47,979 bases of DNA from Geobacter sp. (GTDB lineage: Bacteria; Desulfobacterota; Desulfuromonadia; Geobacterales; Pseudopelobacteraceae), in assembly GCA_025360785.1 (NCBI GenBank), contig JANYBN010000094.1:1-47979 (forward strand). Reading direction: 5' to 3'. Both the position numbers and the translations under genes were made by a program. Below, piece by piece: positions 12,822 to 36,163 of the stretch (the first letter of the stretch is position 1; every line of letters begins with the position of its first letter). The notes under the pieces were generated by a model that saw only the letters and a program-made list of their open reading frames with translations, ran no database searches and had not been told where the DNA came from.

Positions 12822-14297
12822 CTATACCAAACCCTTCTCAGCAATTTCTACCGCTCGCATGACAGCCATTCCTTTGTTGACAGTTTCCTGCCACTCTGTT
12901 GCCGGATCGGAATCGGCCACAATGCCGGCGCCTGCCTGCAGGTGAACTTTTCCATCCTTAATAACCAAAGTGCGGATGGCAATGGCAAGGTCCATATTTC
13001 CCGAAAAGGAAAAATAGCCGACCGCACCGCCGTAGATCTCGCGGCGTACCGGTTCAAGCTCATCTATTATCTGCATGGCACGGACTTTGGGGGCTCCTGA
13101 CAAGGTGCCCGCAGGAAACGTGGCTCGGACCAGATCAAAGGCATCCCGTTCAGCCGATAATTGCCCCTGGACATTTGAAACGATGTGCATGACATGGGAA
13201 TAGCGCTCGACAAGCATCAGTTCGGATACTTTGACCGAACCGGTCGTGCAGACCCGACCCAGGTCGTTTCTGCCGAGATCGACCAGCATTACATGCTCGG
13301 CCAGTTCTTTGGGATCGGCAAGCAATTCGTCAGCCAGACGTGAATCATCCTCAGGTGTTGCCCCACGGGGGCGGGTTCCGGCAATGGGGCGTAATTCAAC
13401 CCGATCACCTTCCTTGCGAACCATTACTTCGGGAGATGCGCCGGCAATCACCGTGTCGTCAAGGCGCAGAAAAAACATATATGGTGATGGATTGAGAGTC
13501 CTCAGTACCCGATATATATCAAGCGGGTCGGCGGTAAGCTCCCCGCTGAATCGCTGTGAAAGTACGACCTGAATGATGTCGCCGGATCGAACATATTCCT
13601 TGGCTTTCTCGACAGAATCCTCAAAGGAAGATTGGGACATGTTCGAGAGGAATTGAACCGGTTTTGCCGAGGTTACAGATTTTTTCGGAGGTAGAGGAGC
13701 GCGCAATTGGTTAATAATGGAATCAATTTTTTCTGTTGCACGAGAGTATGCTTCCGAAGATGAAATCTCCTTGGTAATGTGGGCATTTGAAACCACTTTA
13801 ATTTTCTGACGCATGGTATCAAAAATCACTATGGTATCTGTAATCAGAAAATAAGAATCGTACGCATCGAGAAGAGCCGGTTTATGCGTCGGCAATGATT
13901 CAAAATGGCGAACCATGTCATAACCAAGATAGCCGACGGCTCCGCCAAAAAAACGGGGAAGACCCTCAACCTCAACCGGAGCAAACTGCGCTAAAAGCTC
14001 CTTAACGCAGGCAAGCGGATCTGCTGCTTCCTGCTGGACCGTTACGCCATCTGTAATTGTTTCAACCAGAGTGCCCTTTGAACGAATAATCACCGAAGGA
14101 GTTGAGCCAAGAAAGCTGTAGCGCCCCCATTTTTCACCTCCCTCAATACTTTCCAGAAGATAGGAAAAACGGCCGTCGTCAAGTTTTCTGAAGGCTGAGA
14201 CCGGCGTGTCCATATCGGCCATAATTTCGCGATAAACCGGTATCAGGTTTCCTTTTTCAGCAAGCGAATAGAATGTGTCACGTGGTGGAAAAAACAT
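12822..14297 (-). CDS. trpE: Anthranilate synthase component I
   Basis: The 491-residue chorismate-using subunit that makes anthranilate, the first step of tryptophan synthesis. The N-terminal part (about 1-170) holds the tryptophan feedback site; LLESIEGGEKWGRYSFLG matches the known Trp-binding LLES motif. The C-terminal chorismate domain has IIQVVLSQRFSGEL, ELRPIAGTRPRGATPEDD, LVDLGRNDLGRV, GTLSGAPKVRAMQIIDELE and GGAVGYFSFSGNMD. These residues separate it from the aminodeoxychorismate subunit PabB only imperfectly; the Trp motif favours TrpE. ATG 14297 has GAGGTG 6 bases upstream. No trpG or other trp gene follows: the next item downstream is the insertion sequence, so the glutaminase partner must lie elsewhere. 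Confidence 0.93.
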   Translation of the reverse strand: MFFPPRDTFYSLAEKGNLIPVYREIMADMDTPVSAFRKLDDGRFSYLLESIEGGEKWGRYSFLGSTPSVIIRSKGTLVETITDGVTVQQEAADPLACVKELLAQFAPVEVEGLPRFFGGAVGYLGYDMVRHFESLPTHKPALLDAYDSYFLITDTIVIFDTMRQKIKVVSNAHITKEISSSEAYSRATEKIDSIINQLRAPLPPKKSVTSAKPVQFLSNMSQSSFEDSVEKAKEYVRSGDIIQVVLSQRFSGELTADPLDIYRVLRTLNPSPYMFFLRLDDTVIAGASPEVMVRKEGDRVELRPIAGTRPRGATPEDDSRLADELLADPKELAEHVMLVDLGRNDLGRVCTTGSVKVSELMLVERYSHVMHIVSNVQGQLSAERDAFDLVRATFPAGTLSGAPKVRAMQIIDELEPVRREIYGGAVGYFSFSGNMDLAIAIRTLVIKDGKVHLQAGAGIVADSDPATEWQETVNKGMAVMRAVEIAEKGLV

Positions 14298-14473: not shown

Positions 14474-15415
14474 ATGAAGCAGAGCAAAATACTTCTTGAG
14501 AGCGATACCAATGAGCTTGAAATAGTTGAATTCAGAATCGACGAAGTCGATTCAAACGGCAACGTGCTCCCCTGCTACTATGGTGTTAATGTCGCTAAAG
14601 TCCGTGAAATAATCCGTTTGCCGCAAATGTCACGAGTGGTTAATGCCAAGCCTGGTGTCGAAGGGATGATCAAGCTTCGTGACAAGGTTATCACTATCAT
14701 TAATCTTGCAACCGTACTCAACAAGGCGACCGGGGATCTGGTGGCAGACCGGGTCGTAGTCCTTGAATTCAACAACCTGATGGTTGGTGTGCTGGTTCAT
14801 TCAGTCTCCCGGATCTATAGAATCTCCTGGAAGAATGTGGAACCCCCGGCTGCGGCCGTCCACAGCGATGAGGTGACCGGTCTGGTCAAGATGGACGACC
14901 GGATTATTCTGGTACTGGATTTTGAAAAGATCGTTGCTGAACTCTGTTCTGAAAGCGCCCTTAAACCTCTTGATACACTTTTGCTGCATCGCTCGGAGTC
15001 TAATCCAGAACGCGCCCTAAAAACGGTTCTGGTCGCCGATGATTCCGTATTTATCCGCAAGACGCTCTGCAGCAGCCTCCGTTCGGCCGGATATACGGTT
15101 GTTGAAGCAGAGAATGGTGCGGAGGCATGGAAAACAATTCAGGATACCATGCAAAAGGCTGCCTCAGATGGAAATCTGTTTAAAGATCATATCCAGATGT
15201 TGATAACTGACGTTGAAATGCCGCAAATGGACGGCCTGCATCTCACCTCGCTTGTTCGCAAGGAAGAAACACTGAAGGATCTGCCGGTCGCGATATTTTC
15301 CTCGCTTGCTTCTGAAGATAACAAACGCAAATGGATCGGGCTGGGTGCCAACTGCATTTTGACCAAGCCGGACTTACCAAAACTGGTTGATGTTGTTGAC
15401 GAGTTAACGGCGTGA
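14474..15415 (+). CDS. cheV: CheV-type chemotaxis adaptor (CheW plus receiver)
   Basis: A 313-residue cytosolic signalling protein. Residues about 15-165 form a CheW-like domain (YYGVNVAKVREIIRLP, PGVEGMIKLRDKVITIINLA). Residues about 190-310 form a receiver domain (VLVADDSVFIRKTL, phosphorylatable Asp in MLITDVEMPQMDG, Ser in AIFSSLAS, Lys in LTKPDLPK). CheV couples receptors to CheA and adapts the signal through its phosphorylation. ATG 14474 was chosen because AAAGGTG lies 9 bases upstream; the frame opens earlier at 14438 without a ribosome site. No other chemotaxis gene is adjacent. The 176-base gap to trpE holds an AACACG/CGTGTT inverted pair (about 14401-14435) but no clear promoter. 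Confidence 0.92.
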   Translation: MKQSKILLESDTNELEIVEFRIDEVDSNGNVLPCYYGVNVAKVREIIRLPQMSRVVNAKPGVEGMIKLRDKVITIINLATVLNKATGDLVADRVVVLEFNNLMVGVLVHSVSRIYRISWKNVEPPAAAVHSDEVTGLVKMDDRIILVLDFEKIVAELCSESALKPLDTLLLHRSESNPERALKTVLVADDSVFIRKTLCSSLRSAGYTVVEAENGAEAWKTIQDTMQKAASDGNLFKDHIQMLITDVEMPQMDGLHLTSLVRKEETLKDLPVAIFSSLASEDNKRKWIGLGANCILTKPDLPKLVDVVDELTA

Positions 15416-15459
15416 TTGCCTCTTGACAACCGAGATAAAACTGTGATTAAGTGCCAGAT

Positions 15460-15546
15460 ATGAACTCACACCGCTTCTATATCGCATTCAGCTTTTACTT
15501 TTGGTTCGGCTTTTATTTCAGGCCGTCTGCCCGGGTACAGGTGTAA
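15460..15546 (+). CDS. Aromatic-rich leader peptide of an attenuator
   Basis: A 28-codon frame from ATG 15460 to TAA 15544-15546. Residues 6-20 contain seven Phe, three Tyr and one Trp among 15 positions, then the chain continues RPSARVQV. Such density is known from leader peptides (pheL-like) where ribosome stalling at aromatic codons controls a downstream terminator. The codons for residues 22-26 overlap the first arm of an antiterminator. The ribosome site is weak (AAGTG about 8 bases upstream), and an in-frame GTG at 15451 is the only other start. TTGACA (15423-15428) with a poor -10 (GATTAA) lies just ahead. If that promoter is used, the leader would be almost leaderless; transcription from within cheV is an alternative. 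Confidence 0.85.
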   Translation: MNSHRFYIAFSFYFWFGFYFRPSARVQV

Positions 15547-15606
15547 GCGAAGAAGCTATCACACAAAACCACAAACCGGGGCAGACGAAAGTCTCCCCGG
15601 TTTTTT
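15525..15606 (+). promoter_or_regulatory. Attenuator: antiterminator and intrinsic terminator before DAHP synthase
   Basis: The terminator pairs ACCGGGG and AGAC (15575-15586) with GTCT and CCCCGGT (15591-15601) around a GAAA loop with one bulged C, followed by a six-T run (15601-15606). The competing arm GTCTGCCCGGGT (15525-15536) lies inside the leader peptide gene and can pair with ACCGGGGCAGAC (15575-15586) at 11 of 12 positions. A ribosome stalled on the Phe/Tyr codons leaves the first arm free, so the antiterminator forms. A ribosome reaching the stop codon covers it, so the terminator forms. The mechanism is inferred from this geometry. Confidence 0.85.
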
Positions 15607-15620
15607 GCTGTCTGATTTAT

Positions 15621-15661
15621 CAGTTCAGCCAGAGCCGGGGGGAAACTTCCGGCTCTAACTG
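15621..15661 (+). promoter_or_regulatory. Second strong hairpin just upstream of the DAHP synthase ribosome site
   Basis: AGAGCCGG/CCGGCTCT (15631-15638 and 15649-15656) is a perfect 8-bp stem extended by CAGTT/AACTG across a 5-base bulge. It lies beyond the attenuator terminator and ends 9 bases before the AAGGA ribosome site. It has no T-run. It may protect the message end or modulate translation. Confidence 0.55.
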
Positions 15662-15682
15662 TTTGTGGGAAAGGATCAAGGG

Positions 15683-16702
15683 ATGATAATCGTTATGAAA
15701 GCAGGAGCAGCACAGAAAGACAAGGATGAAGTATTGAGGCGCATCAAGGAGTTGGGGTATACCTCGCATGTGATTCATGGTACGACGCGCGATGTGATCG
15801 GGGCCATCGGTGACGAGCGCGGCAAGACGGCTCTTCAGGCGCTGGAGACTCTGCACGGAGTGGAAAATGTTGTTCCGATCCTGCAGCCGTACAAACTGGC
15901 TTCCCTGGAGGTCAAGAAGGAATCCAGCGTGGTGCGGATCAGTGACACTGTCGTTATCGGGGGCCCGCAAATTGTTATCATGGCAGGGCCTTGCTCGGTG
16001 GAGAGCGAAGAGCAGATTATTGAATCCGCTATTGCCGTCAAAAAAGCAGGGGCGCATATTCTGCGCGGCGGTGCATTCAAACCACGCACCTCTCCATATT
16101 CTTTTCAGGGGCTGGAAGAGGAAGGGCTGAAACTGCTGGCCAAGGCGCGTGACATTACCGGCCTTCCCTTTGTGACTGAGGTGATCAATCCTGAAACTGC
16201 CGACATGGTGGCGGATTATTCCGATATCCTGCAGATCGGCGCCCGCAATTCACAGAACTTTGCCCTGCTTAAAAAAGTCGGTCAGCTTGGCAAGCCGGTA
16301 CTGCTGAAAAGGGGCATGGCGATGACAATCCAGGAGCTCCTGATGAGCGCCGAATATATCATGAGCGAGGGGAACCAGTCCGTAATCCTCTGCGAGCGTG
16401 GTATCCGCACCTTTGAGACCGCCACCCGCAACACCCTCGATTTATCAGCCATTCCCGTTCTGAAACGCAAAACACATCTACCGGTTGTCATTGATCCATC
16501 TCACGGCACCGGCGATCATCATTATGTGGCACCGATGAGCTATGCTGCTGTGGCGGCGGGAGCTGATGGCTTGATTGTGGAAGTTCATCCTGATCCTGAA
16601 CACGCATCGTCTGATGGCGCCCAATCACTGAAACCGGCAAAGTTTGATGTAATGATGCAGAAACTTAAGCTGTTTGCCGAGGCGGATGGAAGGACCCTTT
16701 AA
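15683..16702 (+). CDS. aroF: 3-deoxy-7-phosphoheptulonate synthase, AroA-beta type with ACT-like domain
   Basis: A 339-residue enzyme that joins phosphoenolpyruvate and erythrose 4-phosphate, the first step of the shikimate pathway. Residues 1-70 ([17 protein letters not shown]) are the ferredoxin/ACT-like regulatory domain known from the Thermotoga enzyme, which has nearly the same length. The TIM barrel shows [70 protein letters not shown] and [16 protein letters not shown]. These cover the metal Cys, His, Glu and Asp and the phosphate sites. ATG 15683 was chosen for the AAGGA 7 bases upstream; the open frame starts earlier at GTG 15665. An attenuator precedes it, so transcription and activity are probably both under aromatic feedback. 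Confidence 0.96.
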
Positions 16703-16718
16703 CCTATAAAAAACATTC

Positions 16719-16865
16719 ACCGCAGAGGACGCGGAGGAGCGCGGAGGAAATCAAAAACAAGAATCTTTATGGTAATTCAAAAGCTTTCCTGTTTTTACCC
16801 TGTTTCAGGTTTTCCTCTGCGTTACTCGCTTAGAAGCGCCTACTTTTGGTCGTGTCCTCTGCGGT
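16719..16865. repeat. Palindromic intergenic repeat element
   Basis: ACCGCAGAGGAC (16719-16730) faces its exact complement GTCCTCTGCGGT (16854-16865), and inner GAGGAAA (16744-16750) faces TTTCCTC (16811-16817). The left arm also has the near-tandem units GCGGAGGA GC GCGGAGGA. It fills the gap between the convergent aroF and HD-GYP genes. It has no coding capacity and looks like a miniature interspersed element or structured repeat. Copies elsewhere cannot be checked here. Confidence 0.6.
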
Positions 16866-16910
16866 AAATCAGGTAGTTAAGGTGTAGTTGGAATTGTCGC
16901 GTGTTGCAGG

Positions 16911-34558: not shown

Positions 34559-36163
34559 TTAATTCGGCAGTGTAATAACAAACCTGCAGCCACCGGCATG
34601 GGGTAATTCTACTGACAGAGTCCCACCGTGTGCTTCAATTATTCGGTAGCTGATCGCCAAACCCAGTCCGGTTCCGGCGGGCTTTGTAGTCCAGAACGGC
34701 TCAAAAAGGTGCTGAATGTTATTTTCCGGTATTCCTGAACCGTTATCTGTAATGCTGATCCTGACTATGGCTGGGGCAAAACTGCACTCAACCTTGATTG
34801 CCCCGCCATCCGGCATAGCTTCGGCGGCATTCCGCAGTAAATTGATGATGACCTGATGAAGCTGATTCGGATCAACGCTAACTTCAAGCGATTCCGGCAC
34901 TAGATTTTGCAGACTGATATTTACAAACCGAGGGTCATTAACATGAAAAAGGAATTCATCTTCAACATACATATTCAACACGATTTGTTTCAGTTGCGGC
35001 GGTGCAGGACGGGCATACATAAGAAATTCTGATATCAACGTATCAAGTCGTCCAGCTTCCCGTGTAACAATAGTCAGAAGACGCGCATCAGGTTCCTTAA
35101 TATCTGCGGCACAAGAGAGGAGTTGAACCGACCCGCACAAGGCCGCGAGCGGATTGCGAATTTCATGCGCCATGCGAGCAGATAGTTCACCAAGCGCCGC
35201 CAATCGATCAGCTTTTTTCAACGCTGCTTCCATACTACGAATATTGGTAATATCCTTAAAGTTTACAATATAACCGGTCAGAATACCGTCACTATCATTA
35301 AACGGAGCTATTCTATACCCCAGGGTGATTACTGTATTGTGAGATGACGGATATTCAAACTCTCCTTTTATTGAATCACTGTCAGGATTGAAAAACCCAT
35401 ACAACTGCGGGAATATCATTTCAATCGGCTTATCGTAGGCATCAGACTGATTTAGGCCAACTATTGCTTCAGCATAAGGATTAAATACCCTGATTCGACA
35501 TGTTATTGTTGTTGTCAGAAGACCACTCTCGCTATGTGCAACAATAGCGGAGTTCAACTGAGCCAGCTCAAAATTATCTACAGATGAGCGATGAAGGGCC
35601 TCTTCACTCAAACGGGCACGTTCTGCCAATAATCCGGTAACAAAAGCTGTCAATCCGAAGGCAATTAGGTTGAATGATATTGTATAGAACAGTTGTAAGG
35701 CGCCAACCAGACGCGCATCTTCCTGGCTTAAGCCAATAAATGAGAGAAAACCGAAGTACTGAAAATCGAGAATAGTACCGTACAGAATACCGCACAGTGA
35801 TGCGGTATAGAGGGCTTGGCGACGTCCAAGCAACATACCGGCAATCATTATGGACAGCAGGTACAAAAATGAATACGGACTGAGTATCCCACCGGTAAAA
35901 AGTACAAGGACGGTGACAAACGACAAATCCCAGATAACCTGGAGATTGGTAAGAAACTGGGTGAACTTCAGTTTTTTAAGAATGATCAGCGAAATGATCG
36001 AAAATACAAAAGAAAACGCCATCAACCTGATTACACCAGGTTGAAAGCGTTCGGTAATGACAGCAGAATTTTGAAATTCAAAAAGTAATGTTGCAGCCAG
36101 AAAAAGAAAAGAAACAATAATCCTGGCGTAGATGAAGAGCCTGAGCCTGCGTTCAGAGCCCAT
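34559..36163 (-). CDS. pilS: PilS-like sensor histidine kinase
   Basis: A 534-residue kinase. Six hydrophobic helices (about 10-190) form a membrane sensor; a PAS domain (about 200-315) follows. A HisKA domain has LGELSARMAHEIRNPLAAL with the phosphorylated His, and a HATPase has NLLRNAAEAMPDGG, ITDNGSGIPENN and TKPAGTGLGLAISYRI. In pilus systems PilS activates the sigma54 regulator PilR to express pilA. ATG 36163 lies 2 bases past the pilC stop. No pilR follows: the next gene is an unknown membrane protein and then an HTH gene on the other strand. The name is from position and architecture. Confidence 0.87.
   Translation of the reverse strand: MGSERRLRLFIYARIIVSFLFLAATLLFEFQNSAVITERFQPGVIRLMAFSFVFSIISLIILKKLKFTQFLTNLQVIWDLSFVTVLVLFTGGILSPYSFLYLLSIMIAGMLLGRRQALYTASLCGILYGTILDFQYFGFLSFIGLSQEDARLVGALQLFYTISFNLIAFGLTAFVTGLLAERARLSEEALHRSSVDNFELAQLNSAIVAHSESGLLTTTITCRIRVFNPYAEAIVGLNQSDAYDKPIEMIFPQLYGFFNPDSDSIKGEFEYPSSHNTVITLGYRIAPFNDSDGILTGYIVNFKDITNIRSMEAALKKADRLAALGELSARMAHEIRNPLAALCGSVQLLSCAADIKEPDARLLTIVTREAGRLDTLISEFLMYARPAPPQLKQIVLNMYVEDEFLFHVNDPRFVNISLQNLVPESLEVSVDPNQLHQVIINLLRNAAEAMPDGGAIKVECSFAPAIVRISITDNGSGIPENNIQHLFEPFWTTKPAGTGLGLAISYRIIEAHGGTLSVELPHAGGCRFVITLPN

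Follow-up and report, generated by a model that had tools for sequence, protein, structure and literature searches.

How is the expression of a DAHP synthase, the first enzyme of aromatic synthesis, adjusted in Geobacter? In the stretch of Geobacter sp. DNA analysed here (the window; 47,979 nucleotides of contig JANYBN010000094.1), the interval between an upstream gene and aroF holds, in this order, a 28-codon open reading frame (ORF), a strong terminator, a second GC-rich hairpin and the ribosome site of aroF (Table 1). Comparison with related sequences makes it very probable that this interval acts as a ribosome-mediated transcription attenuator, by which the DAHP synthase would be set by the supply of charged tRNA-Phe, tRNA-Tyr and tRNA-Trp. 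The mechanism is a known one; the RNA family is new and has a variant layout.

Table 1. Features of the probable aroF control region (window coordinates).
Feature	Position	Strand	Remarks
-35 hexamer TTGACA	15423-15428	+	TTGACA-like (at least 5 of 6) in 84/84 loci
-10-like hexamer TTAAGT, with upstream TG and 18-nt spacer	15447-15452	+	promoter spacing
Leader peptide gene	15460-15546	+	28 codons; probably leaderless; stop codon 15544
Control codons	15475-15519	+	7 Phe, 3 Tyr, 1 Trp among 15 codons
Trp codon of leader	15502-15504	+	
P1 hairpin	15507-15525	+	inside control region; 15507-15512 with 15520-15525
Region 2, GUCUGCCC-GGU	15525-15536	+	antiterminator 5' arm, within leader ORF
OUT helix, 5' strand CCACAAAC	15569-15576	+	
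Terminator hairpin 3:4	15573-15606	+	U tract 15601-15606
Region 3	15575-15586	+	partner of region 2 (antiterminator) or region 4 (terminator); both covary
Region 4, part	15595-15604	+	can pair with region 5 (15631-15640)
Second hairpin H2 (regions 5 and 6)	15631-15656	+	
OUT helix, 3' strand GUUUGUGG	15661-15668	+	ends 1 nt before the aroF Shine-Dalgarno stretch
aroF Shine-Dalgarno stretch AAAGGA	15670-15675	+	from sequence; SD-like 4-mer in 84/84 loci
aroF	15683-16702	+	beta-type DAHP synthase, 339 aa; N-terminal ferredoxin-like domain

The locus and its leader peptide gene

The upstream neighbour, whose 3' end lies at 15415, encodes a protein with CheW and receiver parts that by eye is CheV-like. 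The product of aroF is assigned to NF006421, 3-deoxy-7-phosphoheptulonate synthase (509.6 bits, cut-off 335), contains the domains PF00793 and PF18152 and matches the sequences of PDB entries 1rzm/3pg9 (E 3e-104). The ACT-like domain that the preliminary description had ascribed to the enzyme turned out to be Pfam DAHP_snth_FXD (PF18152, E 1.2e-20, residues 1-68), which is ferredoxin-like.

Translation of 15460-15546 gives MNSHRFYIAFSFYFWFGFYFRPSARVQV followed by a stop codon, and the frame proposed there earlier, with 11 aromatic residues in 15, was confirmed by this translation and by shuffling: when the 267-nt interval was shuffled 2000 times with its dinucleotides kept, the aromatic maximum per 15 codons of any ORF was 8, and 0/2000 reached 9. 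The window's other plus-strand ORFs of 10-60 codons all have at most 6 aromatics in 15. On the minus strand an ORF at 36031-36117 has 8 aromatics in 15 (LFLFFFWLQHYFLNF...), and the search model R2 described below gave no match at it.

Conservation of the leader and of its promoter

Enzyme-based searches provided 76 family genomes, the window's own included, and 80 named loci, some of them from these same genomes. The upstream region was read in 69 of the 76; the seven left out comprise three without a match, three with a match missing the gene start and one with a distant paralogue only. A cluster of aromatic codons ahead of a biosynthetic gene, a mark by which attenuators are recognised, was found in the window (11 of 15 codons) and, as a leader with at least 8 aromatics in 15, in 68 of the 69 family genomes read. 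In genome G004 the whole attenuator is absent and aroF (locus L117) stands directly behind the upstream gene; two loci of the same genus, L115 and L120, have kept the element. Cultured relatives such as Oryzomonas japonica (L045) and Geomonas oryzae (L056) have it too. Among the 80 named loci 44 have a leader of at least 8 aromatics in 15 and 8 more have one of 6-7, seven of these being of the VCP/VRP type and one (L078) probably spurious.

After loci with identical upstream DNA had been dropped, the aligned set consisted of 84 Geobacterales-type loci. It includes L063 and L064, which bear Nitrospirota-type labels of metagenome-assembled genomes (MAGs); their aroF genes are Geobacterales-like (77 and 75% identical) and have the attenuator, and their presence on Nitrospirota-labelled MAG contigs would be due to transfer or to mis-binning. 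Trp-x-Gly occurs in 84/84 aligned leaders, and in 73/84 the Trp codon starts exactly 23 nt upstream of region 2.

The promoter keeps an equally regular distance. In 82/84 loci a TTGACA-like hexamer begins 35-38 nt upstream of the leader ATG, and in 82/84 the best -10-like hexamer ends 5-9 nt from the ATG, which places the predicted transcript start at the leader ATG or within about 2 nt of it. So near a -10 hexamer leaves no space for a ribosome site before the leader; an SD-like 4-mer was found before the leader in 2/84 loci versus 84/84 before aroF. This promoter spacing indicates that the leader is probably translated from a leaderless message in Geobacterales-type loci. A sigma-70 scan of the window, which demands A at the second -10 position, listed no promoter. 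Judging from the 69 sites read outside the Geobacterales set, where an SD-like 4-mer precedes 33/69 leaders and a TTGACA-like hexamer lies 34-39 nt upstream in 4/69, the leaderless layout is not general. A leaderless attenuator leader is known from Sinorhizobium meliloti trpL (passage in PMC7298713), which differs from the present one in having Trp codons, trpE as its gene and another RNA, and the ilvB leader of Corynebacterium glutamicum is also treated as leaderless (passage in PMC11857589). The element described here is a natural set for studying attenuators of this kind.

Antiterminator and terminator

An intrinsic terminator with a U tract ahead of the gene, and mutually exclusive antiterminator and terminator helices on one common strand, are two further marks of an attenuator, and both are present in the window. 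The strong terminator claimed behind the leader was confirmed at 15573-15606, with the sequence AAACCGGGG-C-AGAC/gaaa/GTCT-CCCCGGUUU followed by U. The claim that an arm inside the peptide gene pairs with the first arm of the terminator at 11 of 12 positions holds in essence: 8 bp link 15525-15532 to 15579-15586 and 3 bp link 15534-15536 to 15575-15577, with one unpaired G on each side. The 2:3 duplex has an energy of -26 kcal/mol, and the folding z of 15459-15606 is -5.4.

In the 84 sequences the main helix of 2:3 is paired in 95.1% of cells and its inner helices in 81.2% and 61.8%, the terminator 3:4 in 88.8%, and P1 in 95.0%, double changes in P1 being confined to one pair (4 cells). The whole 2:3 structure has 46 double-change cells, a value as high being found in 0/500 shuffles. 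When the partners were shifted by 1-3 columns the pairing of both structures fell to 31-62%. For 2:3 as for 3:4, the percentage paired, the double-change cells and the covariation score exceeded all 500 shuffles; the numbers of pairs showing double changes and of pair types, the remaining two of five measures, were not above them. Similar results were obtained with a diverse set of 58 sequences (alignment A3, 43% mean column identity), in which pairing reaches 96.1% in the 8-bp helix of 2:3 (19 double-change cells) and 90.8% in 3:4 (82 such cells), values not reached in 500 shuffles; these shuffle counts are not probabilities, as the relatedness of the sequences is ignored, and the loci from outside Geobacterales were fetched with models containing 2:3, which biases the counts upward for 2:3 and not for 3:4. 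In loci L072 and L067 the 2:3 helix is built from a quite different sequence (-19.8 and -18.5 kcal/mol). At least 5 U within 8 nt after the terminator stem as called were found in 57/84 loci and in 34/48 other elements, and L049-L052 and L056 have no clear U tract behind the first hairpin. This lack counts against the attenuator reading, as do the at least 5 U in 8 nt that stand behind H2 in 32/84 loci.

Lack of conservation of the peptide or the stems in relatives had been named as a refutation of the attenuator reading; both proved to be conserved, and the helices covary. The leader in nearly all family genomes read, the fixed spacing of its Trp codon and the covarying antiterminator and terminator support that reading. 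As comparison of the sequences brings out, it is the conservation of the ORF, the promoter spacing and the covariation of 2:3, 3:4 and, as described below, 5:6 that form its basis; from these we infer stalling, termination, read-through and the roles of the pairings 4:5 and OUT.

A predicted folding switch

The chain would work as follows. Transcription would start at or beside the leader AUG, and ribosomes would load on the leaderless message, as the promoter spacing suggests. With all three charged tRNAs plentiful, the ribosome would reach the stop codon (15544) and cover region 2, so that 3:4 would pair and RNA polymerase would terminate at 15601-15606. With one charged tRNA short, the ribosome would stall within 15475-15519 and leave region 2 (15525-15536) free to pair with region 3 while region 4 is still to be transcribed. 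Region 4 (15595-15604), thus freed, may pair with 15631-15640 and hold the read-through fold while the polymerase passes. The off state would hence be 3:4 + 5:6 and the on state 2:3 + 4:5.

Predicted folds of the window RNA depend strongly on its length. An RNA that stops at 15606 and has region 2 free folds at equilibrium into the terminator (P(2:3)=0.00); in the RNA 15517-15640, again with region 2 free, P(2:3) and P(4:5) are 0.99 each; with the end at 15660, 2:3 and 4:5 stand at 0.70 and yet the minimum-energy fold is 3:4 + 5:6; with the end at 15690, P(2:3) is again 0.00. The equilibrium folds at 15606, 15660 and 15690 imply that read-through must be kinetic, and the dependence on RNA length implies that the read-through fold is favoured only during the passage of the polymerase. 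A ribosome modelled on the stop codon gives 3:4 + 5:6. Masking of region 2 by the ribosome would fit the spacing, and the predicted fold changes over when region 2 is hidden, the ribosome positions being assumed.

The switch recurs in most of the elements to which the test was applied, which omitted those without an H2 of -12 kcal/mol or lower within 35 nt (1/84 and 18/48). With region 2 free and the RNA extending to the end of region 5, 2:3 is predicted (P>0.5) in 76/83 Geobacterales-type and 24/30 other elements, leaving 7/83 and 6/30 (L163, L194, L197, L200, L209 and L213) that do not switch. With region 2 hidden, 3:4 forms (at least 5 expected pairs) in 73/83 and 29/30, the non-switching elements being 10/83 and 1/30.

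The second hairpin: six segments or four

The main helix of H2 is paired in 95.6% of cells in the Geobacterales-type loci, and with its short outer helix it shows double changes in 9/14 pairs, a result as high being found in 0/500 shuffles. Pairing 5:6 is thereby supported in these loci on comparative grounds. Of the chain that opposes 3:4 + 5:6 to 2:3 + 4:5, the pairing 4:5 is supported outside Geobacterales and within them is, by modelling, only energetically possible. Outside Geobacterales, 22 representatives gave -15.8 kcal/mol for their own segments against -12.7 for swapped ones (p=5e-5, flank control p=0.89), and stepped cut-offs gave p=5e-5, 0.0003 and 0.12 with 22, 12 and 4 representatives. 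Within Geobacterales no covariation of 4:5 was detected (swap p=0.21; with other segments 0.10, 0.41 and 0.62), as regions 4 and 5 are too constant there to tell.

These figures bear on a plainer alternative, an attenuator of four segments in which only 2:3 and 3:4 compete, H2 is a hairpin for stability or processing and 4:5 is a by-product of GC-rich stems. We regard it as possible, though rather unlikely. The missing 4:5 signal in Geobacterales would agree with it, as would the poor U tract of the window's H2, which is followed by AACUGUUUGU, and the lack of a called H2 in L186, L189, L211 and five more of the 48 other elements. Pairing 3:6, too, was above swaps outside Geobacterales (p=0.0007, 0.019 and 0.08), as a duplication of the hairpin would give: a 3:6 signal must follow if both hairpins are alike, so that their common origin by duplication is possible. 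However, outside Geobacterales 4:5 exceeded swaps more strongly than 3:6 did. Moreover, L095, L108 and L109 have a U tract behind the second hairpin only, so that control in these loci needs 4:5 or something similar.

The OUT helix and the ribosome site of aroF

A further helix, OUT, encloses the terminator and H2. By eye its strands in other genera are CCAAAAGC/GCUUUUGG, CGAAAGC/GCUUUCG and CAUACGC/GCGUAUG. Since OUT crosses the antiterminator pairing, it would belong to the non-stalled fold only. A column count on the MAFFT alignment did not support it (68.9% paired, 409/500 shuffles at least as high); the columns there were judged out of register, and a swap test was used for this reason. 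With flanking segments from 28 representatives, own pairs gave -7.8 kcal/mol against -5.2 for permuted ones (p=0.0002), in a test that was post hoc, the helix having first been spotted by eye, and had no valid negative control. Other segment bounds, equally post hoc, gave p=5e-5 (19 representatives), 0.0095 (12) and 0.009 (5). Outside Geobacterales OUT is unsupported (p=0.60, 0.96 and 0.67 at three cut-offs).

If the leader ribosome also set the translation of aroF on finished messages by means of OUT, transcriptional and translational attenuation would arise from one sensor, a two-level arrangement that we consider improbable. The non-stalled state does not close the ribosome site further: over the 84 loci its mean paired fraction in predicted folds was 0.46 with region 2 hidden versus 0.62 with region 2 free, and it was more paired with region 2 free in 42/84 and less in 17/84. 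The closing of the aroF ribosome site by OUT is thus not borne out by the predicted folds.

Constraints on the codons and on the RNA

The aromatic sites of the aligned leaders other than Trp vary by synonymous TTT/TTC and TAT/TAC changes and by interchange of Phe and Tyr. The codons of region 2, in turn, are nearly invariant as nucleotides (CCG in 70/84, TCT in 68/84 and GCC in 66/84), and outside Geobacterales the region 2 word often stands in another reading frame, in leaders ending in VCP. The constraint on the codons and that on the RNA are, on this comparative evidence, separate.

This separation weighs against a role of the peptide itself, either as a small protein or by a nascent-chain arrest sensing something besides charged tRNA, which we find very unlikely. 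The peptide sequence is conserved in Geobacterales up to its C-terminus, as an acting peptide would require; however, the RNA explains that conservation, region 2 being kept although the frame differs (PSAR/RSAR versus VCP type leaders). The aromatic codons, with their synonymous changes and Phe/Tyr swaps, also speak against it, and outside Geobacterales little is kept beyond aromatic richness and region 2.

Direct sensing of an amino acid or tRNA by a riboswitch or T-box, without translation, would equally suit a conserved structured 5' region ahead of a biosynthetic gene, but hardly merits credence, as none of the 4227 Rfam 15 families reached its gathering score in the window and only three tRNA genes did so in 19 related loci, and as without a ribosome the leader would, by prediction, form the terminator directly. 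The T-box, which we take to be among these families, gave no match in the window or in the 19 loci, and the below-threshold matches in 15400-15700 were animal RNAs and a Burkholderia sRNA.

Relation to known attenuators

The ribosome-mediated attenuator proposed here is closest, by gene and codons, to aroR of C. glutamicum, a likeness drawn from the published description and not from sequence. The primary paper on the aroR leader is reportedly that of Neshat et al. 2014. In the aroF operon of C. glutamicum this Phe-Tyr-Phe leader stands before a DAHP synthase, and stalling raises transcription (passages in PMC11802643 and PMC4046766). The aroR leader is actinobacterial and has three such residues, with no Trp mentioned in the passages cited, whereas the present leader has its 11 aromatics including Trp. 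The pheA and pheST leaders of E. coli have a ribosome-binding site and are not known to contain Trp, and they belong to different genes. Attenuation of E. coli pheA (by pheL) and pheST responds to charged tRNA-Phe (passage in PMC11802643).

The number of segments recalls the his leader of enterobacteria, in which stem-loops AB, CD and EF are opposed by an alternative DE, and EF before uridines is the attenuator (passage in PMC10989985); both elements would have six RNA segments with alternative pairing. Unlike in his, the middle hairpin (3:4) has a U tract in most loci, too, aromatic residues are encoded by the control codons and the leader ORF contains region 2. Among the matches listed in the open-licence literature, taken by titles and the starts of abstracts, we found no report of an aromatic-gene attenuator from Geobacter, Desulfovibrio or relatives, and a term search of the accessible text of PMC545781, on metal-reducing delta-proteobacteria, gave no mention of leader, aroF, aromatic or tryptophan.

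Spread and target genes

The element can be recognised by its hairpins and by a common region 2, which reads GUCUGCCC or nearly so, and stands before six kinds of genes. Model R1 matched 59/395 genomes of the window's phylum (E 0.01) and the broader model R2 matched 197/395, the training sequences of R2 coming partly from the same 395 genomes; sites of this phylum with E 1e-4 to 0.01 were checked only among 30 R1 sites read. One of these 30, L210, was dropped as apparently coding DNA. R2 also matched 37/95 genomes in the phylum of the Rokuibacteriota-labelled L087 genome, where a beta-DAHP synthase lies behind six of 8 sites fetched (phmmer) and behind L260 (by eye), L254 being the one site given no class, and 3/148 genomes in the phylum of L064. 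In a control phylum, that of a Bacteroidota-labelled genome, R2 matched 0/148.

As a check, 20 sites from outside model building (E 2e-9 to 5e-5) were picked by hand, and 20/20 have a leader ORF of at least 6 aromatics in 15. The genes behind them form a coherent set: beta-DAHP synthase and ADH synthase (5 each), a periplasmic binding protein (4), and alpha-DAHP synthase, phenylacetate-CoA ligase and, behind another gene, chorismate synthase (2 each). The 69 sites outside the Geobacterales set (20 + 29 + 20 loci, a few of them of the window's class) precede beta-DAHP synthase in 37 cases, plus L186 and probably L199, ADH synthase in 10, phenylacetate-CoA ligase in 7, a periplasmic binding protein (Peripla_BP_6) in 5, alpha-DAHP synthase in 4 and chorismate synthase behind another gene in 3, with L180, which has a TPR protein downstream, as a misfit; gene classes were given by phmmer against one example each, and the ligase example, which is incomplete, is below the PaaK cut-off. 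The targets include both unrelated first enzymes of aromatic synthesis, DAHP synthases (of two subfamilies) and ADH synthase, and an element with six targets would make a phylum-wide aromatic regulon readable from DNA.

Leader codons may then predict the response of the gene, as with the Phe-rich leaders before phenylacetate-CoA ligase. In these, Phe makes up 55/65 aromatics, versus 242/458 in leaders of first-step enzymes (Fisher p=8e-7, with related sequences counted singly). Leaders before the periplasmic binding protein are without Trp in 5/5; L266, L279 and L280 are Phe-rich, with Phe as the only aromatic in L266 and L280, and L207 and L273 are Tyr-rich. The binding proteins behind these leaders are candidate aromatic amino acid or arylacetate transporters.

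Other features of the window's genome

Within the window's genome R2, at E 10, matched this site only, and R1 gave three more matches with E>1, one of them on the opposite strand of the attenuator site. The same genome has a second beta-type DAHP synthase (L002), 52% identical, upstream of which no aromatic leader was found, the best ORF having 4 aromatics in 15. Beyond the upstream gene of the attenuator lies an anthranilate synthase component I-like gene (12822-14297, minus strand; trpE by eye), and a short-ORF scan ahead of it gave no ORF with at least 7 aromatics in 15. Behind aroF, at 16717-16870, there are inverted repeats of a CCGCAGAGGACGCGGAGG-like word, which by eye resemble a dispersed intergenic repeat.
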